Shown one piece after another: positions 3,385 through 33,362 of a stretch of DNA of 64,000 nucleotides. Numbering within the stretch: position 1 is the first letter of the stretch; each line of letters opens with the position of its first letter. The stretch is from Sandaracinaceae bacterium (GTDB lineage Bacteria > Myxococcota_A > Polyangia > Polyangiales > Sandaracinaceae). The stretch is from positions 62,001 through 126,000 of the forward strand of contig JAHBWG010000013.1 of the NCBI GenBank assembly GCA_019637095.1, read 5' to 3'. The notes under the pieces are model-generated. The model was not told the origin of the DNA. It did not search any database and worked only from the letters and a program-made list of their open reading frames with translations. The position numbers and the translations under genes were made by a program.

Positions 3385-3495
3385 CAGGCTCTGCTCCAGA
3401 CGCGCACGAGGCTCGACCGTATCCCAGCGCGACCGCTCGCGAAAGTGGCTTCGCGCGGCGTTCCCGGCGCGCGCGCGCGGGAGTAGCCTCTCCGC

Positions 3496-8712: not shown

Positions 8713-8756
8713 CCCTCGGGAACCTAGCGTCCCGCGCCTCGGACGTCGAGGGCGTG

Positions 8757-11331: not shown

Positions 11332-13257
11332 TCAGCGCGCGCCGCGAGCGAAGGGTCCGGTCGGGACGTGCGGCGGCTTGCGCGACGCGCTGGTGCGCTG
11401 GCCGAAGCTCGTCGAGATGACGGCGCCGAGGCCGGCGAGCGCCGCCGCGCCGACGACGAGCGTGCCGAGCGTCGGCACCAGACCGACGCCGAACAACACC
11501 CCGAGGCCGACGCCGAGCTGAGCGACCGGGCGGTCCTTCGTCACGCCGAGCGGCAGTACGCTGCCGAGCCACCACGCGGCGGTGGCGAACCCGACGCCGC
11601 CGCCCACCACGAGGAGCGTCCAGAGCACGGCCGTGCCGGGGATGCCGATGACGGTGAGCACGAGGACCGAGCCGATCATCACGGCGGCCGAGCAGCCGAA
11701 GAACCCGCCGAACGCGCTGCGCACCGGGCGGTCCGCCAGCTCGGCCCGCAGGTTCGTGAAGCGCGGGCGGTAGGCGCCCAGCAAGAACAGGCCGAAGAGG
11801 AACGCGAGCACGTTGAAGAGGGCCCAGCGGAACACGTTCGGCAGCGCGTCGCTCCCCTTGCGCAGGTGGTGGAAGCGCGACGGGCCCGTCGCCGTCCGGC
11901 TCGCGCCGGAGGTGTCGAGCACCGCGCCGTGGACCGTCGCGCCGTCCGCCACCGAGACCTGGCCGCCCATCGCGTTGACGTCGCCGTGGACGCGCGCGCC
12001 CTCGGCGAGCCGGATGTCACCGCCCATCGTGAGCACGTTGCCGATGACCTCGCCCGTCACGTCCGCGCTGCCGCCCATCGTGACGACGTCGCCGTAGGCG
12101 CGCCCCGCGAGCGTGACGTCGCCGCCCATCGTGACGACGTCTCGGACCTCCTCGCCCGCGCGGATGACGACGGGCGCGCCGAAGGTCACGCGATCGTCGA
12201 CCGCGCGCCGAGGCGCGGGCCGCGCGGCGCTCGCGGGCGGCGGCGAGGCCGGCTCGATCGTCGCGCGCTCCGCGGGCGCGGCGGGCGCATCGGGGGCCGC
12301 GGGGTCCGAGGACGCGGTCTCGGACGCTGCCGTGTCGGACGCTGCCGTGTCGGACGCTGCCGTGTCGGACGCTGCCGTGTCGGACGCTGCCGTGTCGGCG
12401 GGCTCGATCGGCTCGGCGCTCGCGCCGTCGTCGGGGCGCACGACGAGCAGCCGGGGCCCGGGGCGCACGACGACCGCGCTCGTGGCGAGCAGGGCCTCGA
12501 CGACCTCGTCGAGCGGCGCGTCCTCGACGTGCAGCGTGACGAGCGGCTCCTCCGGCAGCGCGACCAGCACGCCGAGCCCCGCGGAGCCGACCGCTTGGCG
12601 CAGCGCCTCGCCGAGCGGCTGGCGCTCGACGCTGACCGACACGCGGGGCGAGGGCTCGGGCCAGCTGCCCTCGACGCGGTAGGCGTGCGCGGAGCCTGCG
12701 GGCGCCGCGACGAGCGCGAGCCCGGCGAGCGCCAGCGTCGTGAGCGTCGCGCCCGGGCGGAGCGGCCGCTCGCCGAGGAAGAGCCGCATCGGCACGACGA
12801 GGCCCAGCCCGAGCACCAGCGCCCCCGCGGCCACCGAGATCCAGCCGCCCGGGATGCCCGAGGTGACCACGTGGTCCGCCGCGCGCACGAGCGTGTAGAG
12901 CTGCGCGCCCCCGCTCGAGAGCCCGCCGAGCGAGCTGGCCTCGGGCAGGCTCAGCACCGCGAGCGCGGCCGCGGTGAGCCCGCCGAGGCCGGCGCCGATC
13001 CACAGGCTGCGCGCGCTCGGCGCGTCGCCCGGCGCCGGCGCCTTGGCCATGGCCTTCTGCACCATCGCGTCGACGTCGAGATCCGGCAGCACGCGCTCGA
13101 GCGCGCGCGTCGCGTCCGCCGCCGCGAGCTGCTCGAGCGCCACGCGCTCGGCGCACTGCGCGCACTCGTCGAGGTGCGCGAGCGCCTCCTCCGGCACGAG
13201 GTCGTCTCGGCCGGTCGCGAGGGCCTCGAGGGCCACCTCGTCGAGGTGCGCGGTCAC
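11332..13257 (-). CDS. Membrane anti-sigma factor with STN-like domain and bactofilin-like repeats
   Basis: Predicted 641-residue protein of unusual architecture. Residues 4-36 form a zinc-binding anti-sigma motif (H28, C32, C35 in HLDECAQC). Transmembrane helices follow near 80-150 and just before 205. A secretin/TonB short N-terminal (STN)-like domain covers about 210-285 (SVERQPLGEALRQAV; LDEVVEALL). A DTAAS repeat linker comes next. Beta-roll repeats follow, with VVTMGGDVTLAG, VVTMGGSADVTG, VLTMGGDIRLAEG and VNAMGGQVSVADG, as in polymer-forming bactofilin-like proteins. Three or four C-terminal membrane helices end it. The GTG at 13257 overlaps the sigma factor stop as GTGA. It probably sequesters the upstream ECF sigma factor in response to an envelope signal. 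Confidence 0.85.
   Translation of the reverse strand: MTAHLDEVALEALATGRDDLVPEEALAHLDECAQCAERVALEQLAAADATRALERVLPDLDVDAMVQKAMAKAPAPGDAPSARSLWIGAGLGGLTAAALAVLSLPEASSLGGLSSGGAQLYTLVRAADHVVTSGIPGGWISVAAGALVLGLGLVVPMRLFLGERPLRPGATLTTLALAGLALVAAPAGSAHAYRVEGSWPEPSPRVSVSVERQPLGEALRQAVGSAGLGVLVALPEEPLVTLHVEDAPLDEVVEALLATSAVVVRPGPRLLVVRPDDGASAEPIEPADTAASDTAASDTAASDTAASDTAASETASSDPAAPDAPAAPAERATIEPASPPPASAARPAPRRAVDDRVTFGAPVVIRAGEEVRDVVTMGGDVTLAGRAYGDVVTMGGSADVTGEVIGNVLTMGGDIRLAEGARVHGDVNAMGGQVSVADGATVHGAVLDTSGASRTATGPSRFHHLRKGSDALPNVFRWALFNVLAFLFGLFLLGAYRPRFTNLRAELADRPVRSAFGGFFGCSAAVMIGSVLVLTVIGIPGTAVLWTLLVVGGGVGFATAAWWLGSVLPLGVTKDRPVAQLGVGLGVLFGVGLVPTLGTLVVGAAALAGLGAVISTSFGQRTSASRKPPHVPTGPFARGAR
12321..12395. 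repeat. Five perfect 15-bp tandem repeats
   Basis: The unit CGGACGCTGCCGTGT occurs five times without a mismatch, encoding DTAAS five times on the minus strand in the linker of the anti-sigma protein. The unit is a multiple of 3, so copy-number change would alter linker length without a frameshift. Confidence 0.97.
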
Positions 13258-18789: not shown

Positions 18790-21700
18790 ATGACGAACGC
18801 ACCCTGGCGCCCGCTCACCGTGCTCGCCCTCGCCTGCGCGCTCGGCGCGGGCTGCGACGAGGACGTCGACCCGGCGCCGACCGTCGCGACCGCGAGCGTG
18901 ATCCGCGGCGGCTTCACCCTCGAGCGCGAGGGGCAGAGCGAGCGCGTGGTCGGCGAGGCGCGCGTCGAGCGCGGCGCCGAGGCGGTCACCGCCGCGGACG
19001 GACGCGGCGTCGTGCGCCTCGACTCGGGCGCGTGGCTGCTCTTCGACCGCGACACCCGCGCGACCTTCGGCGCGGCCGACGAGGCGGGACCCAACGCCGC
19101 GGTCGCGCTCGCGCGCGCGACGCTGACGCGCGGCCGCGTGTGGGTCGACGCGTCGAGCGCGGAGGAGACCACGATCGAGGTCCCGAGCCGCGGCTCCGTG
19201 CGCGCCTCGAACGCGACCTTCGCGATCTCCGTCGGCGAGTCGGGCGCCGAGATCTACTGCGGCTCGGGCGAGATCACCTACGTCTCGCCCGGCGGCAGCG
19301 ACCGGCTCGCGCAGGGCGAGCGCGTCGTGCTCACGGGCAGCGGGGAGCCGCGCGTCGAGCCCGCCGACCTCTGGGACGACTGGACGGGCGGCCTCGCGGA
19401 CCCGGGCCGGAGCCGCTTCGCGACCGCGACCTACCTCGGCGTGCTCGCCGGGCGCCGGCTCGACGAGCAGGGCCACGCGCGCACGGCGCTGCCGATCCGC
19501 GCGCACGAGGTGAACGTACGGGTGCGCGGCGATCTCGCGCGCACCGAGGTCGAGCAGACGTTCTTCAACGCGCGCAGCGACGTGCTCGAGGGCGAGTACG
19601 CGATCCGGCTCCCGCGCGGCGCGATCGTGCAGAGCTTCGCGATCGATCAGGGCGGCGGCTGGCAGGAGGCGGTCGTCAACGCGATGAGCGTCGGCCAGGG
19701 CTACGAGCTGAGCTGGATGGGCTACGGCGTGCAGGGCGCCAAGCTCACCTACGACGGCCCCGATCGGCTGCGCGCGCGCGTCCACCCGATCACGCCGGGC
19801 GCCACCGTGCGGGTGCGCCTCGCGTACACCGAGTGGCTCGACCGCCGCGCCTCGCGCCGCACGTACGAGTACCCGATGCGCGTCGACGGAGAGCCGCCGC
19901 TGCTCGGGGAGTTCATCCTGCAGGTGGACACGTCGGGCACGATGGTCGGCGCGATGCGCGCGGGGATGGGCGCGACCGTCGAGGGCGGCCGCGTCGTCCT
20001 GCGCCGCAGCGACTTCCGCCCGCGCGCCGACTTCTACCTCGACCTCTACGACCCGCAGGCGCAGCCGAACGACGTCGCGACGAGCTACGTCGTGTCCGCG
20101 CCGGCGCAGCAGGGCGGCGGCCCGGCCGCGGAGGGCCAGGAGAGCTACGTGCTCTTCGACCTGCCGACCGAGGCGCTCGTCGAGGCCACGACCGACGCGC
20201 CGCCGCCGCTCGAGCTCGTGCTGCTGCTCGACGTCTCGGGTGAGACGGACCCCGAGGACCTCGAGATCGCGCGCGCCGTGATCGAGGCGGTCCTGCGCCA
20301 GGTCACGCCGACCGATCGCGTGGCGATCCGGCTGGCCGACGTGACGGCGCGCGCGCCCGAGGGCGCGCCGGAGGGCCTCGTCGAGGCCACCGAGGAGAAC
20401 CGCGAGGCGCTCCTCGAGTCGATCGCGCGCGTCACGCTCGGCGGCGCGACCGATCTGGGCCAGTGCCTGCGCGAGGCGGGTCAGCTGGTCGCAGGCCGCC
20501 CGCGCGCGGCGGTGCTCTACCTCGGCGACGGCCTGCCGACGACGGGCGCGCTCGACGCGACCGCGCTGCGCGCGACGCTCGCGACGCTCGACGCGCCGCC
20601 GCGCTACTACGGGCTCGCGATCGGCGACGGCGCGAACCTCGGCCTCTTGCGCCGCCTCTTCGACGGTCACGCCGAGGGCGTGCACGAGCGCACCGAGGCG
20701 GCGCGCGCGGTGATGCAGCTGCTCGCGGACGCGGCGCAGCCGACGCTGCGCGGCGTCGCCGTCGACCTCGGCGAGAACGTCGAGCGCGTGTACCCGCGCC
20801 CGCCGATCCTCGTCGCGAACGGCGCGCACCTGCGCCTCGTCGGCCGGCTCGTCGGCGAGATGCCGCCCCAGGTCACCGTGCGCGGTCACCTCGACGGTCA
20901 GGCGTTCGAGCGGACGCTGAACGTGCGGCAGGGGATCGTGGACGACGACGGCGACGTGCGCCGGCGGTGGGGTCAGAACCGGCTCGCCGAGCTGATCGAC
21001 GAGGACGCGGGCCGCGAGGCGATGGTGGACCTGGGCCTGCGCTTCGGGCTCGTCTCGCCGTGGACCTCGCTCGTCGTCGGCGGCGTGTCGGGCGGCACCG
21101 TCGCGCCGATCACCGGCTTCGATCACGATCCGTTCGCCTACGCGTGGGGCCTGGGCGGCGGCGAGACGGGGGTGAACGCGGCCGAGCTCACGAGCGACGC
21201 GCTCGGCTGGCGCCGCCGCTTGCGCCGCGAGGCGCCCGAGGCGCGCACCGCGCCCGAGGAGACGTGGGTGTCGCGCGTGTCCGAGGGCGAGCCCACGCCG
21301 GCCCCGCGGGGCGCCGGCGGGCGCGCGCCGACGAGCGCGTACGGCGCGGACGGCGGGCTCGCGCGCGCGTCGGTCCAGCGCGCGCTCTCGACGGGCGAGC
21401 GCGGCCCGCGCGGCTGCTACGAGCGCCGCTCGATCGTGCGCCCGGACCTCGCCGGCGAGATGACCGTCGAGGTCGAGGTCGGCAGCGACGGCGCGCCGCG
21501 CGCGGTGCGCATGGTGCGCGAGACGCTCGGCGACGACGACCTGCGCCGCTGCGTCGAGACGGAGATCCGCGGCCTGCGCTTCCCCTCCACGAGCGGCGCG
21601 GGCGCGACCACGGTCACCGTGCAGCACACGCTGAGCTTCCAGATGCCGGAGCGCGAGTTCGGCAGCCGCCGCCAGTGCAGCGACGCGTCGCGGCAGAGCC

Positions 21701-23016
21701 TCGAGACGCGCCGCGCGCTCTGGCGCGAGCGGCTCGCGGCGAACGCGGGCGTCGGCGGCGCGCTCAGCGTGTGGCGCGAGGCCAACGCGCAGTGCGAGCT
21801 CGGCAACTGGCGCGCGCGCCGGACGCTCTTGCACATGATGCTCGACCACTCGGGCCCGGTGCGCGCGCAGGTCGCGCTCTACCGCGCGTTCGCCGGCAAC
21901 GCGTCGATCGAGGACTACCTGCGGCGCGTGATCATGCGCCGCGTGCGCAGCCCCGACGACGTGATCGCGGTGCGCGGCGGGCTCGGCCTCGACGTCCCGG
22001 TCGACTGGACGCTCTTCTCGGACCTCTGGAAGCGCAACCCCGACCCGACGTACCGGCTCGCGCTCGTGCGCCGCTGGCTCGAGGTCGTGCCCGAGGAGAT
22101 GGACCTGCGCCTGCGGCTGCTCGCGCTGCTCGAGCAGACGGGCAACCTCCCCGAGGCCCGCCGCCTCGCGCGCGAGCTGCGCGCGGACCCGCTGGCCGAC
22201 GCGCGCGTGCGCACCCGCGTCGGCGAGTTCTGGCTGCGGCAGGAGGAGGAGCGGGAGGCGCGCCGCGTCTTCAGCGAGCTCGTCGAGCGCACCCCGCTCG
22301 ATCCGTGGGCGCGCCGGCGCCTCGGCGACCTCTACCGCGCGCACGGCTGGGCCGACGACGCCTACCGCGAGTACCGCACGCTCTCGCGGCTGACCCCGAG
22401 CGACGGCGCCGTGCTGCTCCTGCTCGCGCGCGCCGCCGCGGACGCGGGCCGCATCGACGAGGCCTTGCGCCTCGAGCAGCGCCTGAGCGAGAGCACCGAC
22501 CCGGGCGTCGACGAGGGCGCCGCGGGCTACGCGCGTCTCTGGACGACCGTGCGCCTCGCGCGCCTCAAGCTCGACGCCGACGGCGACGAGATGCGCGCCG
22601 CCGTCCGGCGCCGCGAGCGGCAGTCGGGCGCGCTGCGTGAGCCGCCGGCGCTCTTCCTCGCGCTCACCTGGCCGCACCCGGACGACCACCCGGAGCTGCT
22701 CGTGCGCTGGCCGAGCACCGCGGAGGACGTCGGGTGGGAGCCGGTCGAGCTCGGCGGCCGCGACCACGGCATCTACGCGGCGCGCGCGAGGGAGCGCGAG
22801 GAGGGCGAGCACCTGTTCGAGGTGCGCCGCCACGAGTCCGACGAGCTGCGCGACCTGCAAGCCGAGCTGACGTTCATCGCCGGCCTCGGCACCGCGGACG
22901 AGCGCGTCGAGCGCATCCCGTTCACGCTCCCGCGCGACACCCTGCGGCGCCGCTACCGCCTCACCGACGCCGGCGGCCTCACCGAGGTCCCGATCCCGGC
23001 CAACGAGCGGCGATAG
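18790..23016 (+). CDS. Giant FecR-VIT-VWA-AgmX/TonB-C-TPR protein (copy 2)
   Basis: Predicted 1408-residue paralogue of the preceding gene. Signal peptide ends LGAGC (Cys near residue 21). FecR-like region about 30-180, VIT domain about 237-350, VWA about 475-637 with metal site DVSGE and GGATDLG. The AgmX/TonB-C domain is about 851-955, with CYERRSIVRPDLAGEM. TPR-like helices lie about 1097-1237. Compared with copy 1 it lacks most of the Gly-rich spacer. GGAGGAG (18775-18781) sits 8 nt before the ATG at 18790, so that start is preferred over the GTG at 18781 that overlaps the upstream stop. Its last codons form one copy of the direct repeat that brackets the DUF262-HipA cassette. Confidence 0.9.
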   Translation: MTNAPWRPLTVLALACALGAGCDEDVDPAPTVATASVIRGGFTLEREGQSERVVGEARVERGAEAVTAADGRGVVRLDSGAWLLFDRDTRATFGAADEAGPNAAVALARATLTRGRVWVDASSAEETTIEVPSRGSVRASNATFAISVGESGAEIYCGSGEITYVSPGGSDRLAQGERVVLTGSGEPRVEPADLWDDWTGGLADPGRSRFATATYLGVLAGRRLDEQGHARTALPIRAHEVNVRVRGDLARTEVEQTFFNARSDVLEGEYAIRLPRGAIVQSFAIDQGGGWQEAVVNAMSVGQGYELSWMGYGVQGAKLTYDGPDRLRARVHPITPGATVRVRLAYTEWLDRRASRRTYEYPMRVDGEPPLLGEFILQVDTSGTMVGAMRAGMGATVEGGRVVLRRSDFRPRADFYLDLYDPQAQPNDVATSYVVSAPAQQGGGPAAEGQESYVLFDLPTEALVEATTDAPPPLELVLLLDVSGETDPEDLEIARAVIEAVLRQVTPTDRVAIRLADVTARAPEGAPEGLVEATEENREALLESIARVTLGGATDLGQCLREAGQLVAGRPRAAVLYLGDGLPTTGALDATALRATLATLDAPPRYYGLAIGDGANLGLLRRLFDGHAEGVHERTEAARAVMQLLADAAQPTLRGVAVDLGENVERVYPRPPILVANGAHLRLVGRLVGEMPPQVTVRGHLDGQAFERTLNVRQGIVDDDGDVRRRWGQNRLAELIDEDAGREAMVDLGLRFGLVSPWTSLVVGGVSGGTVAPITGFDHDPFAYAWGLGGGETGVNAAELTSDALGWRRRLRREAPEARTAPEETWVSRVSEGEPTPAPRGAGGRAPTSAYGADGGLARASVQRALSTGERGPRGCYERRSIVRPDLAGEMTVEVEVGSDGAPRAVRMVRETLGDDDLRRCVETEIRGLRFPSTSGAGATTVTVQHTLSFQMPEREFGSRRQCSDASRQSLETRRALWRERLAANAGVGGALSVWREANAQCELGNWRARRTLLHMMLDHSGPVRAQVALYRAFAGNASIEDYLRRVIMRRVRSPDDVIAVRGGLGLDVPVDWTLFSDLWKRNPDPTYRLALVRRWLEVVPEEMDLRLRLLALLEQTGNLPEARRLARELRADPLADARVRTRVGEFWLRQEEEREARRVFSELVERTPLDPWARRRLGDLYRAHGWADDAYREYRTLSRLTPSDGAVLLLLARAAADAGRIDEALRLEQRLSESTDPGVDEGAAGYARLWTTVRLARLKLDADGDEMRAAVRRRERQSGALREPPALFLALTWPHPDDHPELLVRWPSTAEDVGWEPVELGGRDHGIYAARAREREEGEHLFEVRRHESDELRDLQAELTFIAGLGTADERVERIPFTLPRDTLRRRYRLTDAGGLTEVPIPANERR

Positions 23017-23021
23017 CCGCG
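22991..23021. repeat. Left direct repeat of the DUF262-HipA cassette
   Basis: 31-bp segment at the 3' end of the VIT/VWA copy 2 gene, containing its stop codon. It matches 26017-26047 at 29 of 31 positions, with a perfect 20-bp core GCCAACGAGCGGCGATAGCC (22999-23018). It looks like an attachment-site or insertion duplication. Confidence 0.75.
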
Positions 23022-23100
23022 CTGAGGGGCCGCAAGTCGCGCTGCGCGCAGTCGGCGCTCGTGGCGCAGCCGAGGGGTCGCCGTGTAGGCTCTCCAAGCG

Positions 23101-24729
23101 ATGAGCGACTCGCTCGAGAGACGCCCCGAGGCGCACGCGCTGACCGTCGAGGAGTTGGTGCTCCGGGCTCGCCGGGGTGAGGTGCGCGTGCCCGTCTTTC
23201 AGCGAGGCCTCCGCTGGGACGTTCACCACGTGCTCGATCTGTTCGACAGTATCCTCCATGGCTACCCGATCGGGTCCCTCCTCTTGTGGGAGCACCCCGC
23301 GGGCGCCGAGAGGATCCGGATGGGGCCGATCGCCATCGACGCGCCGGAGACGCAGACGGCGTGGTGGGTGGTGGACGGGCAACAACGTCTCACCACCCTG
23401 ACCGTTGCGCTGGCCCGCCCGCTCCCCCAACCGACCCAGCCCGACGATCCGTACGTCGTCTACTTCGACGCGGCGGCCAACGCGTTCTGCAGCCCGGCGC
23501 GCGACGAAGAGCCCGCGGTCTCGTGGGTCCCCTGCCCGCTCCTCGGCGACTCCGCGCGGCTCCACCGTTGGATGCTGAGCTGGTCGGGGGCGGGCGACGA
23601 CGCGTGGGTCGACCGCGTCCTCGAGGCGGGCAAGCGGGTTCGCGAGTACGTCGTGCCGTTCTACGTGATCCGCACGGACGACGAGGACACGCTTCGCCGG
23701 ATCTTCGACCGGGTCAACCGGGCCGGAGTTCGGCTCGAGTGGAAGGAGGTCCACGCCGCGCTCTTCGGCGCCCGGGGAGGTCACCCGGCGACCCTCGAGG
23801 CGTTGGCGACCGAGCTCGCCACCGTCGGTCTCGGCCGGCCGGACGAGGACGCGCTGTTGCGCTGCCTCTTCGCGCTGCGAGGGCTCGACCCGACCCGCAG
23901 CCCCGGCGAGCTCATCGAGAAGCACCGCGACCTCCTCGGAGATGGCGCCGCGGACGCGCTCCCGGCGCTCCGGCGCGTCCTCTCGTTTCTGCGCACCGAC
24001 GCGGGCATCCCGCACCTTCGGCTGCTGCCGCGCTCGACCGTGCTCGCTCCCCTGGCCCGCTTCGCGGCGCTGCATCCGGAGCCGAGCCCGCGCTCGCGCG
24101 CGCTCCTCGCGCGGTGGGTGTGGCGCAGCTTCGTCGGTGAGGCGAGCGTGGACGAGCGCACCTTGCTGCGTCGCTCCATCGAGCGAATCGGCGAGGACGA
24201 GGAGGAGTCGCTGCAACACCTCCTCGACCTGTTGCCGAGGGACGCGCCCCCGAAGATCGAACTGGGCGCGCGGTTCGACGCAAGGGCGGCGGGCACGAGG
24301 CTCGCGCTCCTCGCGATGGCGGGCGCCGGACCCCGCGATCTCCGCGACGCCTCCGAGATCGACGTCGCCGCGCTCATCGAGGCGCACGATCTCGACGCGT
24401 TCGTGCCGGTGCTGTCCGCCCGCTCTTCGGCCGCCCGGCGGACGGCGCCCTGGGGACGGCTGCTTCATCCGCCGCTCGCGTCCGCGGACCTGCGAGCGGC
24501 CATCGCGCACGCGCCCGCGGAGGCGTTGGCGTCGCAGCTCGTCTCGGAGCGCGCCGCGAGCGCCCTCGCCCGTGGCGACGACGAGGAGTTCCTCTCGGCC
24601 CGCGAGGGCGCGCTTCGCGCGGCGCTCGCCACGACCGCCGATCGCCTCGCCGGGTGGTCTCGCGGCGACCACGACCGCCCCTCGATCCGCCATCTCCTCG
24701 CCCGCGTGGAGGACGAGGTCGCCGAGTGA
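23101..24729 (+). CDS. DUF262 (GmrSD-type N-terminal) protein
   Basis: Predicted 542-residue cytoplasmic protein. The N-terminal DUF262 fold shows VPVFQRGLRWD (30-40), LFDSILHGYPIGSLLLWE (47-64) and VDGQQRLTTL (91-100). This is the ParB/Srx-like NTPase-nuclease core found in GmrSD type IV restriction and other defence proteins. A further conserved-looking segment FDRVNRAGVRLEWKE lies near 202-216. The C-terminal DUF1524/HNH module of full GmrSD enzymes is not evident; the C-terminal half is helical and unassigned. The ATG at 23101 follows TAGGCT by 9 nt. The stop overlaps the GTG of the HipA gene, so the two proteins are expected in fixed ratio. Confidence 0.87.
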   Translation: MSDSLERRPEAHALTVEELVLRARRGEVRVPVFQRGLRWDVHHVLDLFDSILHGYPIGSLLLWEHPAGAERIRMGPIAIDAPETQTAWWVVDGQQRLTTLTVALARPLPQPTQPDDPYVVYFDAAANAFCSPARDEEPAVSWVPCPLLGDSARLHRWMLSWSGAGDDAWVDRVLEAGKRVREYVVPFYVIRTDDEDTLRRIFDRVNRAGVRLEWKEVHAALFGARGGHPATLEALATELATVGLGRPDEDALLRCLFALRGLDPTRSPGELIEKHRDLLGDGAADALPALRRVLSFLRTDAGIPHLRLLPRSTVLAPLARFAALHPEPSPRSRALLARWVWRSFVGEASVDERTLLRRSIERIGEDEEESLQHLLDLLPRDAPPKIELGARFDARAAGTRLALLAMAGAGPRDLRDASEIDVAALIEAHDLDAFVPVLSARSSAARRTAPWGRLLHPPLASADLRAAIAHAPAEALASQLVSERAASALARGDDEEFLSAREGALRAALATTADRLAGWSRGDHDRPSIRHLLARVEDEVAE

Positions 24730-25979
24730 GCGAGTCGCGTTACGACGTGCTTCTCTCCGACACGGTGGTCGGCGCGCTCTCGGCGCGCGGCGATGGACTG
24801 GTCTCGTTTCGCTTCGACGAGGCGTACGCGGCGCACCCCGCGCGACCCGTCCTCGGACAGGCGTTCGAGGACGACCTCTCGAGGCCCTACGCGGGCAACG
24901 CGGCCGGCGCTCTCCCGGGCTTCTTCGCCAACCTGCTGCCCGAGGGGGCGCTGCGAGGCCTCCTCGAGCGCTCGCTCGGGAGCGAGTGGACAGGCGACGA
25001 CGCCTCCCTGCTGGCCGCGCTCGGAGAAGATCTCCCCGGCGCGGTGCGAGTGCGGCGCAGCTCCGAGCGACCTCGCCCGTCCCCCGCGTCCACGGCCCCG
25101 CTCGCGCTCGTGGACGAGGCGCGAGCGGGCCTCCGGTTCTCGCTGGCGGGGGTGCAGCTCAAGTTCTCGATGCTGGCCGAGCGCGATCGGCTCACGCTCC
25201 CCGCGCACGGCGAGCACGGCGACTGGATCGTCAAGCTCGGCACGGAACCGTACCCGCACCTCGTCGAGAACGAGCACGCGACCATGGAGTGGGCGCGCGC
25301 GTGCGGGTTCGATGTCCCCGAGTGCCGGCTGCACTCCGTCAGCGCGCTGCACGAGCTCCCTCGCCGGTACGCGCCCGAAGGATCCGCCGTCCTGGCCGTG
25401 AGGCGCTTCGATCGTCCCGAGCCCGGAGCTCGGGCTCACCAGGAGGACTTCGCGCAAGTCATGGATCGGACGAAGCCGCCCCGAGGCAACGGGCGCTACA
25501 AGTACGACGCGAAGGTCGAGTCCATCGCTGTGCTGGTCAAGACGATCGTCGGCGACGAAGCGTACTTCGAGCTCGTGCGCCGCCTCGCGTTCATCATCGC
25601 CAGCGGCAACCTCGACGCGCACCTGAAGAACTGGTCACTGAGGTACCCCGACGGGCGGACGCCCGAGCTCTCTCCGCTCTACGACCAGGTCCCTACGCTC
25701 GTCTGGCCCCAGCACGACCGCGAGCTCGCGCTGAAGCTGGCGGGGACGCGTCATCCCGGCCAGATCGACGCGGCACGCCTCCGCTTCCTGGCCAAGAAGG
25801 TCGGCATGAGCGAGGAGCAGACCGTCGCGGTCGCGACGAAGACGATCGCCCGGGCGCGCGAGACGTTCGCCTCCGCGATGGCGCCGCGGATGCCGGACGC
25901 GGCACAGCGCCGCGAGCTCGTCGAGTACTGGGAGACGGTCCCGCTGCTGCGCGACGCTGGCCCGCTCGATCGAGCCTGA
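24726..25979 (+). CDS. hipA: HipA-family kinase-like toxin
   Basis: Predicted 417-residue HipA-type Ser/Thr kinase. The N-terminal part has the HipA lobe signature YAGNAAGALPGFFANLLPEG. The ATP-loop segment is AGVQLKFS (G142, K146). The catalytic stretch is GNLDAHLKNWSL (G294, D297, H299, K301, N302), and the second metal-binding aspartate is D320 in SPLYDQV. All key residues of active HipA kinases are present. Canonical HipA phosphorylates aminoacyl-tRNA synthetases and is neutralised by HipB; no HipB-like helix-turn-helix gene is adjacent. The GTG start at 24726 overlaps the DUF262 stop. The DUF262 protein may therefore be its partner or regulator, which is inference. Confidence 0.92.
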   Translation: MSESRYDVLLSDTVVGALSARGDGLVSFRFDEAYAAHPARPVLGQAFEDDLSRPYAGNAAGALPGFFANLLPEGALRGLLERSLGSEWTGDDASLLAALGEDLPGAVRVRRSSERPRPSPASTAPLALVDEARAGLRFSLAGVQLKFSMLAERDRLTLPAHGEHGDWIVKLGTEPYPHLVENEHATMEWARACGFDVPECRLHSVSALHELPRRYAPEGSAVLAVRRFDRPEPGARAHQEDFAQVMDRTKPPRGNGRYKYDAKVESIAVLVKTIVGDEAYFELVRRLAFIIASGNLDAHLKNWSLRYPDGRTPELSPLYDQVPTLVWPQHDRELALKLAGTRHPGQIDAARLRFLAKKVGMSEEQTVAVATKTIARARETFASAMAPRMPDAAQRRELVEYWETVPLLRDAGPLDRA

Positions 25980-26016
25980 TCCTGGGACCTCCGTGCGGCC
26001 GCCCGCGTCGGTGAGG

Positions 26017-26047
26017 CGATCCCCGCCAACGAGCGGCGATAGCCCCG
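26017..26047. repeat. Right direct repeat of the DUF262-HipA cassette
   Basis: Partner of 22991-23021 (29 of 31 identical, same orientation). It lies in non-coding sequence between hipA and the next gene, and looks like a displaced copy of the end of the VIT/VWA gene. Confidence 0.75.
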
Positions 26048-26125
26048 GCGGCGTGACGGACGCCGCGCGCTCGCACGACCGCCGGCGCCCGCGCCGTGCT
26101 ATGAGTGCCGCGCGGAGGGAGCACG

Positions 26126-26692
26126 GTGTTCGATCGTTACGAGGTCGGCGGGCTCGAGCTCACGGTGCACCACTGGCACGCCGTCCCCGCCGAGCGTCGC
26201 CGCGCCACGGACGCGGAGCGCGAGGCGCTCGCCGCCACGCTCCGGACGGACGAGGGCGCGCGGCAGCGGCTCCGTCGCTGGCTCGCCGAGGCCGGGTTCG
26301 AGCTCGCGCACGTCGACGAGGTCGACGCGCTGCTCGACGCGGCGCGGGGCGGGCGGGTCGTCCTGTGCGCCCGCCCCGTCGAGCGGCCGGTCGTGCAGGT
26401 GTTCGACGGCGAGTCCGACGCCGACGCGGACGCGACGCCCCCGCCCGCGCCCGAGCACGACTGGATCGAGATCGAGCTCACCGACGAGGACGACGTCCCG
26501 CTGCCCGGCGTCGCCTTCGCGCTGACGCTGCCCGACGGGACCGTCCGGCCCGGCATCACCAACGACCGGGGCCGCTTCCTCGTGCCCCGCACCGACCCAG
26601 GGCAATGTCGCTTGCGTTGGACACGCTTGCACCCGGTCGAGCGCGCGCCGCGGTTCGTCGCCGCGCTCGCCGCCGGCCTGACCGACGTCTGA
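26126..26692 (+). CDS. Small protein with carboxypeptidase-regulatory-like segment, secretion-associated type
   Basis: Predicted 188-residue soluble protein. The C-terminal half has the beta-sandwich pattern seen in proteins linked to type VI-like secretion: IELTDEDDVPLPGVAFAL, LPDGTVRPGITNDRGRF, then a PGQCRL ending. The N-terminal half is helical without a known domain. GGAGGGAG upstream supports the GTG at 26126 rather than the in-frame GTG at 26105. It precedes the OmpA/metalloprotease gene by 19 bp and is probably cotranscribed with it. The secretion link is an inference from similarity of motif; no T6SS structural genes are in the window. Confidence 0.65.
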   Translation: MFDRYEVGGLELTVHHWHAVPAERRRATDAEREALAATLRTDEGARQRLRRWLAEAGFELAHVDEVDALLDAARGGRVVLCARPVERPVVQVFDGESDADADATPPPAPEHDWIEIELTDEDDVPLPGVAFALTLPDGTVRPGITNDRGRFLVPRTDPGQCRLRWTRLHPVERAPRFVAALAAGLTDV

Positions 26693-26711
26693 CCGCGCCG
26701 CGAAGGACACG

Positions 26712-29555
26712 ATGACCCGCTTCACCCGCCGCGACTTCGACACCGAGCACGACCTCGCCACCGGGCAGCTCCACAAGTTCGTCCTGAAGGAGCTCCACGG
26801 CCACGTCCTCGAGGTGAGCTCGGTCCACTTCCACTTCGACAGCGCCGTGCTCTTGCCGAACCTCACGCCGCCGCCCGCTCCTGCTCCCGACGCGGCGCCG
26901 CCGCCGGCCGAGGAGGCGAGCGCCGACGGCGAGGACGAGGGTCCGAGCGAGACCGACCTCGCGGTGCCCGGGCTCGCCGTGCTGCGCGCGATCTACCTGC
27001 AGGCCGAGGAGCACCCGGCGCAGAAGATCCTCATCACCGGCCACACCGACACGTCGGGGGGCGCCGCGTACAACGTGACGCTCGCCCACCAGCGGGCGAT
27101 GAGCCTGAAGCACGCGCTGCTCGGCGAGCGCGACGAGTGGGTGGCGATCGCGCACGCCAAGCATCGCGTCGAGGACTACCAGCAGATCCTCACCTGGGTC
27201 TCGAAGGTCTGGGCGGCCGACTGCGACCCCGAGGGCATCGACAACATCCACGGCAGCCGGACCACGCGCGCCGTGCGCAACTTCCAGGCGCTCTACAACG
27301 AGGAGTTCGAGGCCGAGATCACCGTCGATGGCGTCGTCGGCCCACAGACTTGGGGCGCCATCTTCGACGTGTACATGGAGGTCCTCGCGGACATCCTCGA
27401 TGTGGACGTCGATCAGCTCCCCGCCGAGCGCGCGCGCCTCTCGTTCGTCGACGCGGGCAAGCCGGGCGTCGGCTGCGGCGAGCACTTCCCCATCGACCTG
27501 CCGGGCGTCGACGGCCGGCGCAGCGGGCTCAACCGGCGCGTCCAGGTCCTCTTCTTCGACCCGGGTGAGGAGCCGCTGCTCGACTGCCACCCCGCCGCCG
27601 ACCAGTGTCGCCCCGACGACTGCGAGATCTACAGGAAGCGGCACCACTTCTTCTTCCCGATCGACGTCGCGCCGGTGCCGCTCCTGCCGCGCTACCGGCT
27701 CGAGGTCGAGCTCGGCGACATCGACAAGCTCTTTACGCCGATCGTCGCCGAGACGCACACGGATCCCGGCGTGCGCGAGCGGCTGCAGGCGGTCGGGTTC
27801 CTCTACTCGCCGCTCACGCACGCGGACATCGCGGATCGCGCCGAGCACGCGTGGGCGCACTTCAAGAAGGTCTACGAGAAGAGCGACGACGCGTCGGCGG
27901 TCGCCCACCTGCGCGACCGCGTCGAGCAGCTGATCGTCGACGGCAAGGCGCTGCCGCCCAAGGGGGAGCTCAAGAAGCTGCGCGTGCCGGGCGCGTATTG
28001 CGTGACGCCCGCGCAGATGGCGGCCGGCTTCTTCGGCACCAACGCCGCCGGCCACCGCTACCGCGAGGAGTCGAGCGTCTGGCGTGACAACGACTCGATC
28101 GGGCGCGTCCCGATCCTCGGCAAGCTCGAGGCGAAGTTCCGGCGCGGGTGGCGTCCGGCGGGCGGCGTCTCGCTCCACTTCCAGCTCGACACGCCCGACC
28201 CGATCCCGGCGGGGCACGCCTGCGCGCGCGAGCCGCTTCGGCAGGCCACGACGACGAGCACGAACGACAACGCGGCGCCGCCGCCCGCGACGGTGACGTT
28301 CACGATGACCGGGCACCCCCACGGCTACGTGGACGCGCAGCTCACCTCGAAGCCGCCCTCGGACCCGCTCGCCGACAACGTCCACAAGGACTTCGGCGGC
28401 AAGCGCGGCGACGTGGTGCGCGGGGTCGACCCGGTGACCAACCTCTTCGAGGTCGGCAACCGCCGCACGTACTTCGAGGGCGAGCTCGACTACGCCGATC
28501 CGTCCGCCTCGAACCACGCGCACGCCGTGAAGGCGGTCACCAACGATCGCGGCGAGGCCGTGGCGATCTTCATGCCGTCCTTCATGGGAGGCGATCGCTA
28601 CAAGCTCCGCGTGTTCGTCGATCCGCTGCGGGGCCGTCCCTCGAACGGGCGCGTCAAGCCGGCGGTCGTGAAGGAGACGGGCACGCTCGTCGTCTGGCGC
28701 ATCTTCCGCATCAGCAAGTACCTGCGCTGGCCGTATCCCGCGGGGACGACGGCGCAGCAGAAGGCGCGCTGCTACGGCGACCTCGACGACTTCGACATGG
28801 CGGCGATCGCGACCGAGTACAAGAAGGCCTGGCTCGAGGTGGAGCTCGAGCCCGAGGCCCGGGCGCCGACGAACCTCACCGCCGCCGATCACCTCGGGGC
28901 GATCCAGTACGCGAAGGCGAACGCGCGGCCGGCGACGACGCAGCGCTACGACCTCGGCGCGCTCGTGCTCGAGACCGGCACGAGCGCGGGGGTGATCGAG
29001 CTGCGCACCGCCGCGCAGTACGACGCCGCGCCCAAGGCGCCGCCGCCGCCCGGCGGCTGGCCCTCCGCCGTCTCCGACCCGAGCTACTGGAACAACATGA
29101 GCCGGATCTTCCACGAGCTGAAGACCGAGCTGCTCCACTACTTCACCCGCAACGCGATCAGCGGCCTGACGATCCTGCAGGCGCCGGCCGTCTCGAGCTT
29201 CACGCCGAGCCCTCCGCCCGGGATGCCGGCGACGCCGTACGGCAACAGCGGCTGGGGCACGGATCGGCGCGCGTGCTGGGTGATCTTCGGCCACGACGCC
29301 TACTTCGGCTGGATGCCCTACGACCACACCGCCAACGCGCTCCACGAGACGGGGCACGTGGTGTACGGCGTGCACCAGTACACGAGCACCACGCAGGTGA
29401 GCGTCAACACCGGGGCGACGTTCGACGCGCACGACTACACGGACCTCTGCATCATGGGGTACATGAAGTGCGACCCCGACTTCTGCGGTCGCTGCGTGCT
29501 CAGCCAGGCCGGCTGGGACACGAGCCGCCTGTCCGCCAACCCCCCGGGGCCGTAG
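26712..29555 (+). CDS. OmpA/peptidoglycan-binding protein with metzincin-like C-terminal domain
   Basis: Predicted 947-residue multidomain protein without an obvious signal peptide. An OmpA-like segment spans about 35-280 (VSSVHFHFDSAVLLPN; ITGHTDTSGG; LNRRVQVLFFD). A peptidoglycan-binding domain is inserted at about 176-223 (SRTTRAVRNFQALYNEEF; VDGVVGPQTWGAIFD). The long middle is unassigned. The C-terminal domain carries a zinc protease site HETGHVVYGVH: H878, E879, H882 and H888 match HExxHxxGxxH except that the glycine is one residue later. CIMGYM (M915) could be the Met-turn. It may be a cell-wall-targeted protease or effector. Followed after 3 bp by the next gene. Confidence 0.82.
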   Translation: MTRFTRRDFDTEHDLATGQLHKFVLKELHGHVLEVSSVHFHFDSAVLLPNLTPPPAPAPDAAPPPAEEASADGEDEGPSETDLAVPGLAVLRAIYLQAEEHPAQKILITGHTDTSGGAAYNVTLAHQRAMSLKHALLGERDEWVAIAHAKHRVEDYQQILTWVSKVWAADCDPEGIDNIHGSRTTRAVRNFQALYNEEFEAEITVDGVVGPQTWGAIFDVYMEVLADILDVDVDQLPAERARLSFVDAGKPGVGCGEHFPIDLPGVDGRRSGLNRRVQVLFFDPGEEPLLDCHPAADQCRPDDCEIYRKRHHFFFPIDVAPVPLLPRYRLEVELGDIDKLFTPIVAETHTDPGVRERLQAVGFLYSPLTHADIADRAEHAWAHFKKVYEKSDDASAVAHLRDRVEQLIVDGKALPPKGELKKLRVPGAYCVTPAQMAAGFFGTNAAGHRYREESSVWRDNDSIGRVPILGKLEAKFRRGWRPAGGVSLHFQLDTPDPIPAGHACAREPLRQATTTSTNDNAAPPPATVTFTMTGHPHGYVDAQLTSKPPSDPLADNVHKDFGGKRGDVVRGVDPVTNLFEVGNRRTYFEGELDYADPSASNHAHAVKAVTNDRGEAVAIFMPSFMGGDRYKLRVFVDPLRGRPSNGRVKPAVVKETGTLVVWRIFRISKYLRWPYPAGTTAQQKARCYGDLDDFDMAAIATEYKKAWLEVELEPEARAPTNLTAADHLGAIQYAKANARPATTQRYDLGALVLETGTSAGVIELRTAAQYDAAPKAPPPPGGWPSAVSDPSYWNNMSRIFHELKTELLHYFTRNAISGLTILQAPAVSSFTPSPPPGMPATPYGNSGWGTDRRACWVIFGHDAYFGWMPYDHTANALHETGHVVYGVHQYTSTTQVSVNTGATFDAHDYTDLCIMGYMKCDPDFCGRCVLSQAGWDTSRLSANPPGP

Positions 29556-29558
29556 CCC

Positions 29559-30986
29559 ATGAGCGTAGAGATCGAGGTCACGTTGGGGCGCGCCCGCCTC
29601 GTCGCCGGCGAGGACGCCTCCTTCCGCCTGACCGTCGCGAACCGCGGCGCCGCCGACGCCACCGTGCGCGACCCGGCGCTCGACGGCGAGTGGCCCAAGC
29701 TCGAGGTGCTCGAGCCCTCGGGCTTCCGCGTCGCGCACGCCGGGCGTCACGATCGCACGCGCGCAGCATCGCACGACTTCTTGCCCCCGCCGCTGCCGGA
29801 GCGCGTGACGCTCGCGCCGGGGCAGGCGGCCGAGGCGGACGAGCGCTTGCTCGCCTGGGTCGGCCCGCTCGCGCCGGGGCGCTACGAGGTGCGCGCGCAC
29901 CTCGAGGCGGACGGGCTGGCGCTGCGCTCGGCGACGGTCCCGCTCGAGGTCGACCCGCTCGCGCCCGCGGACGTCGAGCTCGTCGGCCCGCACGCCGGCC
30001 CGGCCGACCTCGCGTACGCGCTCGTGACGCACGAGGAGCGCGACGGAAGCCGCGAGCTCCTCTCGTGGCTGCACGAGCTCGACTTCGAGGGCCACCTCCA
30101 CGCGGTGGCCGTGCAGCGGCTCGGGCGCGTCGGCCATGACGCGAGGGGCTCGGTGACGCGCGCGGGCTCGCCGTATCCCGGGCAGTGGATCGTCTGGGTC
30201 GAGGCGGGCCGGCTCGCGGGGTTCTTCCACCTCCAGGGCCGCGCGCTCGCGCGGCTCGACGCGCCGCTCCCGCCAGGCGCGGCGCTCGTCGGGCCGGCGC
30301 TCGTCGAGCTCGAGGGCTGCGACGGAAGCGCGCCGCCGCGCGCCGAGGTGCTGGTGCACACGCCGGGGCGCGCGTTCGTCGCGTGCGTCGCGCCGGACGG
30401 CGCGGTGCGCGAGGGCGCGAGCTGGGCGCTCGAGGGCGAGCTCGAGTGGGGGCGCGCGACGCTGCCCGAGGCCAACGTCCGCGAGGCCTTCGTCGCGCTC
30501 CGCCGGCGCGACGCGCTGGAGATCGTGCGGCTCGCCTGGGACGCGGACGGCGACCCCGCGAGCCCGCAGCCGATCGCCACGCGGCCCCTCGGGCGCGTCC
30601 TGGGCGCCGACGCGGCGCTCGGTCCGGACGGTCGCGCCGCGGGCGCCCTCGTCACGCGCGCGCCGCGCGGCGAGGGCGAGCCGACCGACCGCTACGAGCT
30701 CGTGCGCTTCGTCCTCGACGCGGGCGGCCGGCCCGAGGTGAGCGCGCGCGCGCTCGCGTTCGATCCGCCGCGCGACTTCGTCCGCGCGCTCGTCGGCGCG
30801 CGCGGGGACGGCGAGGCGAGCGCGTTGCTCCAGGGCGTCGGCGGCGCGTACTTCACCGCGACGGCGGCCGGCCTCGTGGCGGCGCCGCGCCTCGCCGGTG
30901 CGCCGCTCGCGGTGCGCTACTGGGGCGGCGCGCCGTGGGCCCTCGCCGGCGTCGATCGCGGCCTCGCGTGGCAGAGGCTCGGGTGA
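29559..30986 (+). CDS. Unknown protein with N-terminal Ig-like domain
   Basis: Predicted 475-residue soluble protein. Residues 1-130 look like an immunoglobulin-like beta sandwich (LVAGEDASFRLTVANRGAAD; LAPGRYEVRAHLEA), similar in layout to CARDB or BsuPI-type domains. The remainder is a regular alternation of short beta strands (for example EIVRLAWDADGDP and ELVRFVLDAGGRPEV) suggestive of a beta-propeller, without recognised family. ATG 29559 lies 3 bp after the metzincin-like gene and the stop overlaps the next GTG, so it belongs to this operon. It could act as a specific partner or inhibitor of the protease, but that is speculative. Confidence 0.72.
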   Translation: MSVEIEVTLGRARLVAGEDASFRLTVANRGAADATVRDPALDGEWPKLEVLEPSGFRVAHAGRHDRTRAASHDFLPPPLPERVTLAPGQAAEADERLLAWVGPLAPGRYEVRAHLEADGLALRSATVPLEVDPLAPADVELVGPHAGPADLAYALVTHEERDGSRELLSWLHELDFEGHLHAVAVQRLGRVGHDARGSVTRAGSPYPGQWIVWVEAGRLAGFFHLQGRALARLDAPLPPGAALVGPALVELEGCDGSAPPRAEVLVHTPGRAFVACVAPDGAVREGASWALEGELEWGRATLPEANVREAFVALRRRDALEIVRLAWDADGDPASPQPIATRPLGRVLGADAALGPDGRAAGALVTRAPRGEGEPTDRYELVRFVLDAGGRPEVSARALAFDPPRDFVRALVGARGDGEASALLQGVGGAYFTATAAGLVAAPRLAGAPLAVRYWGGAPWALAGVDRGLAWQRLG

Positions 30987-31714
30987 AGGCGCTGGTCGCG
31001 GTCGCGCTCGCGCTCGCGACGTCCTGCGGCGGCGACGACGCGCGCGCGCCGAGCACGGCGAGCACGCCGAGCGCGCCCGCGGGCGAGCGAGGCGGCGCGA
31101 GCGCGACCGCCGCCGCGCCGGTCCGGGACCTCTGCGGCTCCCCGGACGAGGCGCGCCTGCGCGCGCTCCACCCGGAGCTGCCCGCCTGCTTCTCCCGCCG
31201 CTACGTCTTCCTCGAGGCGCGCGTCGCGGGTCACGACCTGCTCGTGCTCGCGCACGACGCGGACCCGTGCTGCACCGACGTGCCGAGCCCCGCTACCGAC
31301 GCGGGGGCGCACGTCTTCGTCGACGGCGCGCCTCGCCCCTCGCACGACCCGATCGCGCTCGGCGCCGCGCCCGCCGACGCGGATGAGGCGCTCGCGTGGC
31401 TCGTCGCCGAGCTGCTCCGGCTCCACGTCACCGACCCGCGCGTGGACGCGGCGGGCGCCGAGCGGCTGCGCGCCGCCTGGCCCGCGGCGCGCGCGGCGAT
31501 CGACGCGCACGCGCCGGGCCTGCGCGCGGAGGGGGCGACCTTCCGGCTGCGCGCGCTCGCCGAGGCGCGCGAGGTCGAGCGCGGCATCGACTGCCGCTCG
31601 CTCTCCGTCTGGGAGGCGGAGCTCGACGCGAGCGGCGTGCGCGCGCGGCGCGCGGCGTTCTATTCGGCGGGCCGCGCGATGGGCGCGCCGTGCCCCGGCG
31701 ATCCGCTGCCCTGA
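30983..31714 (+). CDS. Putative lipoprotein, unknown function
   Basis: Predicted 243-residue exported protein. The N-terminus is a short signal peptide ending LALATSC (Cys near residue 15), followed by a Thr/Ser/Ala-rich linker. The mature part has six or so cysteines (for example DLCGSPDE, LPACFSRRY, DPCCTD, GIDCRS) and no known domain. The GTG at 30983 overlaps the upstream stop as GTGA. It is the last gene of the OmpA/metzincin operon. It may be an outer-membrane-anchored partner of the upstream proteins. Confidence 0.75.
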   Translation: MKALVAVALALATSCGGDDARAPSTASTPSAPAGERGGASATAAAPVRDLCGSPDEARLRALHPELPACFSRRYVFLEARVAGHDLLVLAHDADPCCTDVPSPATDAGAHVFVDGAPRPSHDPIALGAAPADADEALAWLVAELLRLHVTDPRVDAAGAERLRAAWPAARAAIDAHAPGLRAEGATFRLRALAEAREVERGIDCRSLSVWEAELDASGVRARRAAFYSAGRAMGAPCPGDPLP

Positions 31715-31843
31715 TCACCGTCGTGACGTTCGCGACGGGAGCCTTCGCCGCATCGCCGACGGCGGCGGCGTGGGGGGGGGACGGTCGCCGACGAGCCGCC
31801 TCGAGGCCGTGGCGGTCGCCCGGTCGCCCGTCATACTAGGCCC

Positions 31844-32632
31844 GTGGAGGGGGGCGCAGTCATCGCGATCGTGCTCGTGGTGGTCGCCGTGGCGGTCATC
31901 GCGACGGCGGCGCAGAAGGCTCGGAAGCGCGCCGGGTTCCACGCGCTCGGCCCGCTGTTCGACGGACCCGCGACGGTGAGCGAGGAGGCGTCCAGCGTCA
32001 CCGGCGAGATCGACGGACAACGCGTCACCGTGCGGTTCACCATGCGCGGGAGCGGAAGCAACAGCACGTCCTGGACGGAGGTGGACGTCACGCACGGCGT
32101 CATCGACGTGGACCTCGCGCTACGCCCGCACGGCTGGAGCGAGGATCATGCGATCGCCGCAGGCCGCGCGATCGATCTGCAGACCGGGCACCCTGCCTTC
32201 GACGACAGGTTCGTCGTGGAGGCGGCCCCCGCGGACGTCGTGCTCGCCGCACTCGATGGGCCGACCCGTGAAGCGCTGCTCGCCCTCGACGCGTCGTGCG
32301 ACGTCGTGACTCCGGCCGCTGGCCAGCTCCAGATCGGCCAGCGCGGCTGGCTGACGGACCTCTCCGTGTCCCGACCGCTCGTGGGTGCCGCGGTGCGGCT
32401 CGGCACGGCGCTGCGCGCCGCGCGGAGCGAGATCGGGCACGGCGACCGGGGCGCGAGCGCCTACCGCGACGCGCCCGACGCGCGCGGGGAGGCACGTCGG
32501 CGCGCGGAGCTCGAGGCGCTGCGGGCGCTCAGGGCCGAGCGCAGCGCGCATCAGGTCCGGGTCGGGGTGGTGGCCGTGGTGCTCCTCGTAGGCCTGGTGC
32601 TCATCTTCGCTCTCTGGAGCGGGTTCGAGTGA
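31844..32632 (+). CDS. Membrane protein with N- and C-terminal helices
   Basis: Predicted 262-residue protein with one transmembrane helix at residues 5-22 (VIAIVLVVVAVAVIATAA) and another at the C-terminus (about 242-258). Between them is a mixed alpha/beta region of about 200 residues with DGQRVTVRFTMRGSGS and TGHPAFDDRFVVEAAPADVV, a pattern reminiscent of DUF3137-like proteins but not firmly assignable. The GTG at 31844 follows CATACT (31832-31837) by 6 nt, suggesting a leaderless transcript. Its neighbours do not indicate a pathway. Confidence 0.75.
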   Translation: MEGGAVIAIVLVVVAVAVIATAAQKARKRAGFHALGPLFDGPATVSEEASSVTGEIDGQRVTVRFTMRGSGSNSTSWTEVDVTHGVIDVDLALRPHGWSEDHAIAAGRAIDLQTGHPAFDDRFVVEAAPADVVLAALDGPTREALLALDASCDVVTPAAGQLQIGQRGWLTDLSVSRPLVGAAVRLGTALRAARSEIGHGDRGASAYRDAPDARGEARRRAELEALRALRAERSAHQVRVGVVAVVLLVGLVLIFALWSGFE

Positions 32633-32717
32633 CTGAGGCGGCTCGGCGAGTCGCGAGCGCGGGCCGCCGAGCCCGCACCGACGCGGGCGCGGCGAGCGTT
32701 CGGAGCCGCCGCGGTGG

Positions 32718-33218
32718 TCAGCGCGCGCGCGGGTCGGGGATCGGCGCGGTCGTCGGGCCCGGACGCGGCTGGCCCTCCTCGCTGCAGCAGTCGCGGCAGG
32801 TCCGCGCGTAGCACTGCCCCTCGCGGACGCAGCAGTACTCGTCTGCCCCGCACTCGACGGCGCCGCAGGTGGTCGGTCCGGCGAGCCGTCCTTCGCCGAG
32901 CTCGGCCTGACCGAGCGGAGGATCCGCCGGCAGATCGACCGTGACCTCGCCCGGCTCGCCCGGGTCCGGGCGCGGCATGTCCGGGTTCGTCGGCGTCGGC
33001 GTCGGCACGTGCGGCGGCCGGCCGATCGCGGCCTCTTCGACCGGCGGATCGTCCAGGGTCGGAGGCAGGCTCGGCATCGAAGCGTCCGGCATCGGCGGCA
33101 CCTCGCCGAGCGACCCGCTCTCGTCGCCGACCTCCATCATGCAGGCGCCGTATCCGACCAGCCCTGCCACGAGCACACCGAGGACGATCGCTCCGAAGAT
33201 GATGTGACGTCTCTCCAT
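32718..33218 (-). CDS. Membrane-anchored protein with Cys-rich C-terminus
   Basis: Predicted 166-residue protein. A basic start is followed by a hydrophobic helix at about 7-25 ending in YGACMM, then a Pro/Asp-rich linker. The C-terminal Cys cluster TTCGAVECGADEYCCVREG and CYARTCRDCC resembles small disulphide-rich extracellular domains. The ATG at 33218 has a strong GGAGGTGCAGCC upstream, which fixes the start inside a much longer artefactual frame. It is divergent from the PilZ gene and convergent with the membrane protein at 31844. Function unknown; probably periplasmic or surface. Confidence 0.78.
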   Translation of the reverse strand: MERRHIIFGAIVLGVLVAGLVGYGACMMEVGDESGSLGEVPPMPDASMPSLPPTLDDPPVEEAAIGRPPHVPTPTPTNPDMPRPDPGEPGEVTVDLPADPPLGQAELGEGRLAGPTTCGAVECGADEYCCVREGQCYARTCRDCCSEEGQPRPGPTTAPIPDPRAR

Positions 33219-33362
33219 GGCTGCACCTCCCGTGTGCTCGAGCCGGAGATGGGCGCCGCGCGCCGGTTGACCAGAGGGAAAAAGCACGCGCCGCCGCCGC
33301 GTCCCCGCGCGGGGCGCCGCTTTCTTGGGGACGCGCGGCCCGACGGCGTACAACCGAGGGCG

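Follow-up and report, generated by a model that had tools for sequence, protein, structure and literature searches.

A duplicated gene end brackets a DUF262-HipA gene pair in a Sandaracinaceae genome and recurs around unrelated inserts

Introduction

Border direct repeats and the targeting of gene ends are typical of integrase islands. The locus described here lies in the window, i.e., the whole 64,000-nucleotide stretch of Sandaracinaceae bacterium DNA that we analyzed. It shares a border direct repeat with integrase-borne islands at gene 3′ ends but lacks an internal integrase and, unlike DNA transposons, inserts of its type show no terminal inverted repeats, conserved ends, or fixed-length duplication. 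Recombinase-free entry is a feature that they have in common with single-crossover or homology-facilitated illegitimate insertion (PMC3240628; T6SS modules, PMC5361080). When Escherichia coli was supplied with linear DNA that was homologous at one end, a duplication was present in 56 of 60 selected clones, and these duplications (109 to 950 bp in the sequenced clones) were attributed to circularization plus a single crossover (PMC3240628). Part of the homologous gene is duplicated in those products, as it is here (PMC3240628). Homology-facilitated illegitimate recombination proper differs in that DNA is usually deleted, whereas one of the sites reported below (G297) lost none and some of the repeats are very short.

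The genes between the repeats also have relatives in described systems. As in HipBA type II toxin-antitoxin modules, the HipA protein is full length, carries a Couple_hipA domain at its N terminus along with invariant residues of the kinase, and is encoded in an overlapping bicistron; however, its partner is a 540-aa DUF262 protein instead of the helix-turn-helix antitoxin HipB. HipAD (DS-6), a validated phage defense system made of a HipA kinase and a DUF3037/DUF1829 partner, likewise joins a HipA-family kinase to a non-HipB protein (PMC13092281), whereas the partner family in the window is DUF262 and the pair is a candidate system. The DUF262 core with its FQR and DGQQR motifs is shared with the type IV restriction enzymes GmrSD, BrxU, and SspE, but the window protein has no detected GmrSD_C/HNH domain and is paired with a kinase. 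The candidate defense operon ptuXYZ also contains a short DUF262 protein without DUF1524, yet there it is accompanied by a PtuA-like ATPase and a BECR-fold RNase and by no HipA (PMC11980606).

Results

Structure of the locus

The features of the locus are listed below in window coordinates.

18796..23016, + strand: VIT-domain/TPR gene, start codon predicted, whose 3′ end is the target (Pfam VIT, E = 2.7e-11; TPR)
22957..22991, + strand: R1a, 35-bp segment of the VIT gene that recurs inverted downstream (32/35 against the reverse complement of 25984-26018)
22991..23021, + strand: R1b, native end of the VIT gene with its TAG stop, first direct-repeat copy (29/31 against 26017-26047)
23101..24729, + strand: DUF262 (GmrSD_N) gene, 542 aa, with FQR and DGQQR motifs (Pfam PF03235, E = 3.2e-26)
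24726..25979, + strand: HipA kinase gene, 417 aa (Pfam HipA_C, E = 8e-44; Couple_hipA, E = 9e-18)
25984..26018, − strand: R2a, inverted copy of R1a, 4 nt past the HipA stop
26017..26047, + strand: R2b, direct copy of R1b (29/31 against 22991-23021)
26126..26692, + strand: next downstream gene, CarboxypepD_reg-like (below the Pfam cutoff), not beside the VIT gene in relatives

Alignment reproduced the repeat pair described in the initial annotation, with 29 of 31 identical bases between 22991-23021 and 26017-26047 and a perfect 20-bp core that includes the TAG of the VIT gene. This core occurs at two sites in the window, both of them repeat copies (0.03 expected), and exact matching across the 9.25-Mb draft genome (197 contigs) returned the same two sites; the repeat is thus unique genome-wide instead of being one of many ordinary coding copies. 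BLAST searches of the genome with 22940-23040 as the query recovered the direct copy of the VIT gene end (E = 2.9e-6), together with an inverted copy of 22957-22991 at 25984-26018 (32/35; E = 4.4e-7). Copy 2 therefore consists of 35 inverted bp followed by 31 direct bp and is not a plain direct repeat, a point missing from the initial annotation. Some 60 bp at the 3′ end of the VIT gene are present again 3′ of HipA, 35 bp of them flipped, and the distance from the HipA stop to the start of copy 2 is 4 nt. The copies show four differences in their coding part, three of them at third codon positions. Plain duplication of a target by a cassette integrating at a gene end, as originally proposed, does not account for the partly inverted copy 2. 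The duplicated gene end on either side of DUF262-HipA is a real insertion scar. An invertible segment between the 35-bp inverted arms was set aside: 3 of the 35 arm positions are mismatched, and no invertase lies between the arms.

The 3-kb interval between the repeats contains the DUF262 and HipA genes alone, the start of HipA overlapping the DUF262 stop by 4 bp, and neither open reading frames nor Pfam matches revealed an integrase or recombinase gene inside it; both points had been made from the sequence at the outset. The structural model of the DUF262 protein (pLDDT 87.8) matches BrxU (E = 8e-11) and SspE (E = 6e-5), and FQR and DGQQR are invariant in DUF262 across distant partners. GmrSD_N is its only Pfam match, with none past residue 217; no HNH or DUF1524 (GmrSD_C) nuclease domain and no DUF3037/DUF1829 domain were found in it. 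HipA has the catalytic residues of the kinase, including K170, N295, D297, and D320, and these four, along with H299, K301, and N302, are invariant in a 25-sequence alignment. No HipB helix-turn-helix antitoxin gene lies next to HipA, which is adjoined by the DUF262 gene only. The PADLOC candidate PDC-M55C matches the DUF262 protein (E = 5e-54), and the open full-text literature searched yielded no mention of PDC-M55.

The VIT gene in related genomes

VIT matches were found in 9 of 10 family genomes, the window's genome counted, and the 3′ end of the gene in one relative (G004) resembles R1b (GAGATCCCGGCCAACGAGCGC...). DUF262, HipA, and the next window genes are absent behind the orthologous VIT gene in all seven relatives whose downstream regions were examined, in line with the original interpretation. 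The VIT 3′ end is single copy in the relatives examined, G001 excepted, and none carries both copies without an insert. In G001 (L061, 485-669 and 1993-2177), the VIT gene end is duplicated over 185 bp with 98.9% identity, ending at the stop, and brackets a different, unrelated 1.3-kb lipoprotein-like insert. Next to the second copy, on its 3′ side, comes a regulator gene whose counterpart in G002 is located further downstream.

The family offers no exact empty site for the window locus because the downstream genes are not beside the VIT gene there: those at 26126-29555 were not seen adjoining it in the family, and those at 26712-29555 were not found there at all. No other family genome has the OmpA-like gene that lies downstream of the module. 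In G006, the VIT gene directly abuts the gene corresponding to that at window position 33372, so the whole of 23017-33360 is variable in the family; this stretch, bounded by the VIT gene and the gene at 33372, represents an insertion hot spot in the family. The empty site that had been expected on the insertion reading is hence lacking at the window locus itself, but congeners provide empty sites at two other loci of the pair (G297 and G155).

The pair across phyla

DUF262-HipA is a conserved overlapping two-gene unit across phyla. HipA directly follows DUF262 in 28 of 30 loci within the class, usually overlapping it, and adjoins it in 30 of the 32 wider loci (L115 to L146) found by a search with the DUF262 alignment as the query, which come from Holophagales, Thermomicrobiales, Proteobacteria, actinomycetes, Riflebacteria, and others. 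A DUF262 relative in G293 (L070/L098) is an exception, with no adjoining HipA. On two Azospirillum plasmids, the genes are present as a lone pair. Genes beside the pair are diverse, unrelated, and frequently housekeeping, and no integrase family was matched by at least two of the 124 flanking proteins. Few defense genes occur in these neighborhoods; placement in defense islands was unsupported by the flanking genes, the pair being solitary, and a PADLOC comparison of flanks with random regions was uninformative, as kinase-type models dominate the control. The open full-text literature searched contained no description of the pair, which is widespread and apparently new to the literature; a single paper there mentions both DUF262 and HipA, and the pair is not its subject. 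Its designation as a transferable unit agrees with its being kept together across phyla amid unrelated neighbors, mostly at lower GC than the flanks (insert below flank at four of five sites).

Scars and empty sites at other copies of the pair

Of 51 pair loci, 5 are tightly bracketed by directly repeated gene ends, versus 8 of 9343 sliding control positions, which are autocorrelated and themselves not insertion sites; about 90% of the pairs have no bracketing repeat. The repeats measure 22, 31, 47, 48, and ∼190 bp, with no fixed length. The G297 module is surrounded by an exact 22/22-bp duplication with zero bases lost, and in all five congeners searched (G292 to G296) its flanking genes overlap at ATGA, with a single repeat copy and no module. 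In G155, two convergent genes have their ends within a 47-bp repeat, copy 2 of which contains the HipA stop; the same two genes are adjacent without the module in the congener G154. The repeated sequence is the 3′ end of a resolvase gene on Azospirillum argentinense p5 and the junction of two genes in a Riflebacteria MAG; the copies in L142 and L114 are diverged (80 to 90%) and gene-like. Among the occurrences of this geometry are one on a complete plasmid and one within an 821-kb contig.

Of 51 differences between coding copies, 30 are at third codon positions (P = 1.7e-4 versus 1/3; P = 0.13 versus 1/2); for the three cleanest cases the figure is 7 of 8. Against a model in which one copy drifts freely, this bias is weak overall (P = 0.13; P = 0.035 in the clean cases). 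Neither terminal inverted repeats nor shared insert ends were found, with at most 7 bases common between events and at most 9 within one. Repeats from 22 to ∼190 bp and the lack of anything common at the insert ends indicate that no defined element is involved. The insert junction lies a few bases from the last stop codon in the window, in G297, and in the kinase-like and Hen1-like inserts described below, and within the last codons of the insert in G155.

Several further repeats were set aside. That at L103 has another partial copy nearby and looks like a dispersed repeat, and that at L095 is of low complexity. An 18-bp repeat at L118 (7856-7873 and 10838-10855) was not counted, both copies lying, by eye, in hairpin-like sequence; it sits after aspS and after HipA and could be a shared terminator element. 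The L096 repeat (G286; 3436-3547 and 7835-7946), a perfect 112-bp repeat around 4.3 kb holding DUF262-HipA and other DNA, was left out of the tight test, its upstream copy being 1.4 kb off. At L112 (G031; 8612-8837 and 12369-12598), copies of ∼225 bp (93 to 95%) lie 3.6 kb apart downstream of the pair and do not bracket it.

The same scar at unrelated inserts

Scanning of a sample of 464 kb of the window's genome and 400 kb of G007, to which the count of scars refers, uncovered gene-end duplications around other genes, named by eye from their translations. A 26/26-bp repeat over overlapping convergent gene ends (G000:C176:91476-91501 and 95175-95200) brackets a lone Ser/Thr-kinase-like gene whose own stop touches the repeat; in G005 and G006, the outer genes flank another gene of ∼1.4 kb. 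A Hen1-like gene group is bracketed by a 187-bp repeat (90%), which its last stop touches, with a third copy 5 kb on. The 3′ end of one gene is thus present three times (G000:C176:151823-151997, 157078-157264, and 161805-162071) with two inserts between, the first being the Hen1-like one, a possible array of successive insertions. The initial annotation had taken the geometry to mark the pair as one transferable unit. That it singles out a special cassette was not supported: since unrelated inserts carry the same scar, it marks insertion in general and not DUF262-HipA.

Discussion

We favor, with moderate confidence, the view that the module entered behind the VIT gene as foreign DNA, by illegitimate joining and host recombination, without a recombinase encoded by the module. 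On this view, a donor fragment with the module would have been attached through its HipA end to DNA of the gene end by illegitimate end joining, the 35-bp flip arising at that joint in the window locus, and the module would have been placed with both neighbors intact. One repeat copy would be the native gene end and the other a slightly different version, either brought along or formed in the course of insertion; the excess of third-position differences fits two alleles, though later drift of one copy is compatible with it too. We infer from the sequence that joining of this kind is the most likely mechanism at the window locus. For the longer repeats, circularization and then one RecA-mediated crossover within the shared gene end would produce geometry of this kind. 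A length of 30 bp is cited as usually needed for RecA in E. coli (PMC2884548), and the window and G297 repeats (22 to 31 bp) are at or under it; these shortest repeats may instead stem from fill-in at staggered breaks, which fits them equally well. Ku-dependent end joining was also considered; Ku was sought and not found in the window's genome.

Extended to all sites, such fill-in would amount to target-site duplication, with the module captured at a staggered break with long overhangs and the copies identical at first, the downstream one having drifted. Homology with the donor is unnecessary in this case, and the exact 22/22 repeat at G297, without base loss, and the 26/26 repeat at the unrelated kinase insert speak for it. 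We nevertheless regard it as somewhat unlikely, for the copies elsewhere differ mainly at third codon positions, repeats of 185 to 190 bp are long for such a process, the flipped 35 bp of the window requires an additional step, and the genome has no detected Ku. A tyrosine or serine recombinase supplied in trans could have integrated the module site-specifically, using the gene end for attachment. This would explain the gene-end targeting and direct repeats that are generally known from integrase islands, and the duplicated gene in Azospirillum p5 is itself a resolvase gene. Such integration appears improbable given that the target genes differ, the repeats range from 22 to ∼190 bp, the insert ends have no common sequence, and no integrase family recurs among the flanking proteins.

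The diverged, gene-like copies in L142 and L114 recall remnants of a tandem gene duplication, the module having inserted between two former copies. This is very improbable, because the empty sites of G297 are single copy, the flanking genes of G155 are adjacent without the module in a congener, and insert-free VIT relatives have one copy. Chance similarity or assembly error, for which the draft state of the genome (197 contigs) might speak, is scarcely conceivable against the genome-wide E values of two adjacent segments (2.9e-6 and 4.4e-7) and the recurrence of the geometry on a complete plasmid and an 821-kb contig. Recombinase-free joining with host recombination thus remains our preferred reading. 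Its extension is tentative and, in its full breadth, doubtful: large myxobacterial genomes may gain minimal modules by a general route that is independent of recombinases, duplicating 20 to 200 bp of a gene end, sparing both neighbors, and often joining at the module's last stop codon, DUF262-HipA being a widespread, undescribed kinase-based defense system spread in this way.

As to function, the analogy with HipAD (PMC13092281) and with DUF262 enzymes acting on modified DNA suggests that HipA is probably a kinase toxin or defense effector held or triggered by its DUF262 partner. On the same analogy, we infer that the pair is a defense or toxin-antitoxin system in which DUF262 stands in for HipB. 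A restriction-type sensor domain replacing HipB would make it a testable, broadly distributed candidate system of either type. The scar can be read as a record of integrase-free entry of single genes and small modules into chromosomes, a reading backed by the empty sites, and the frequency of this route of insertion thereby becomes countable.
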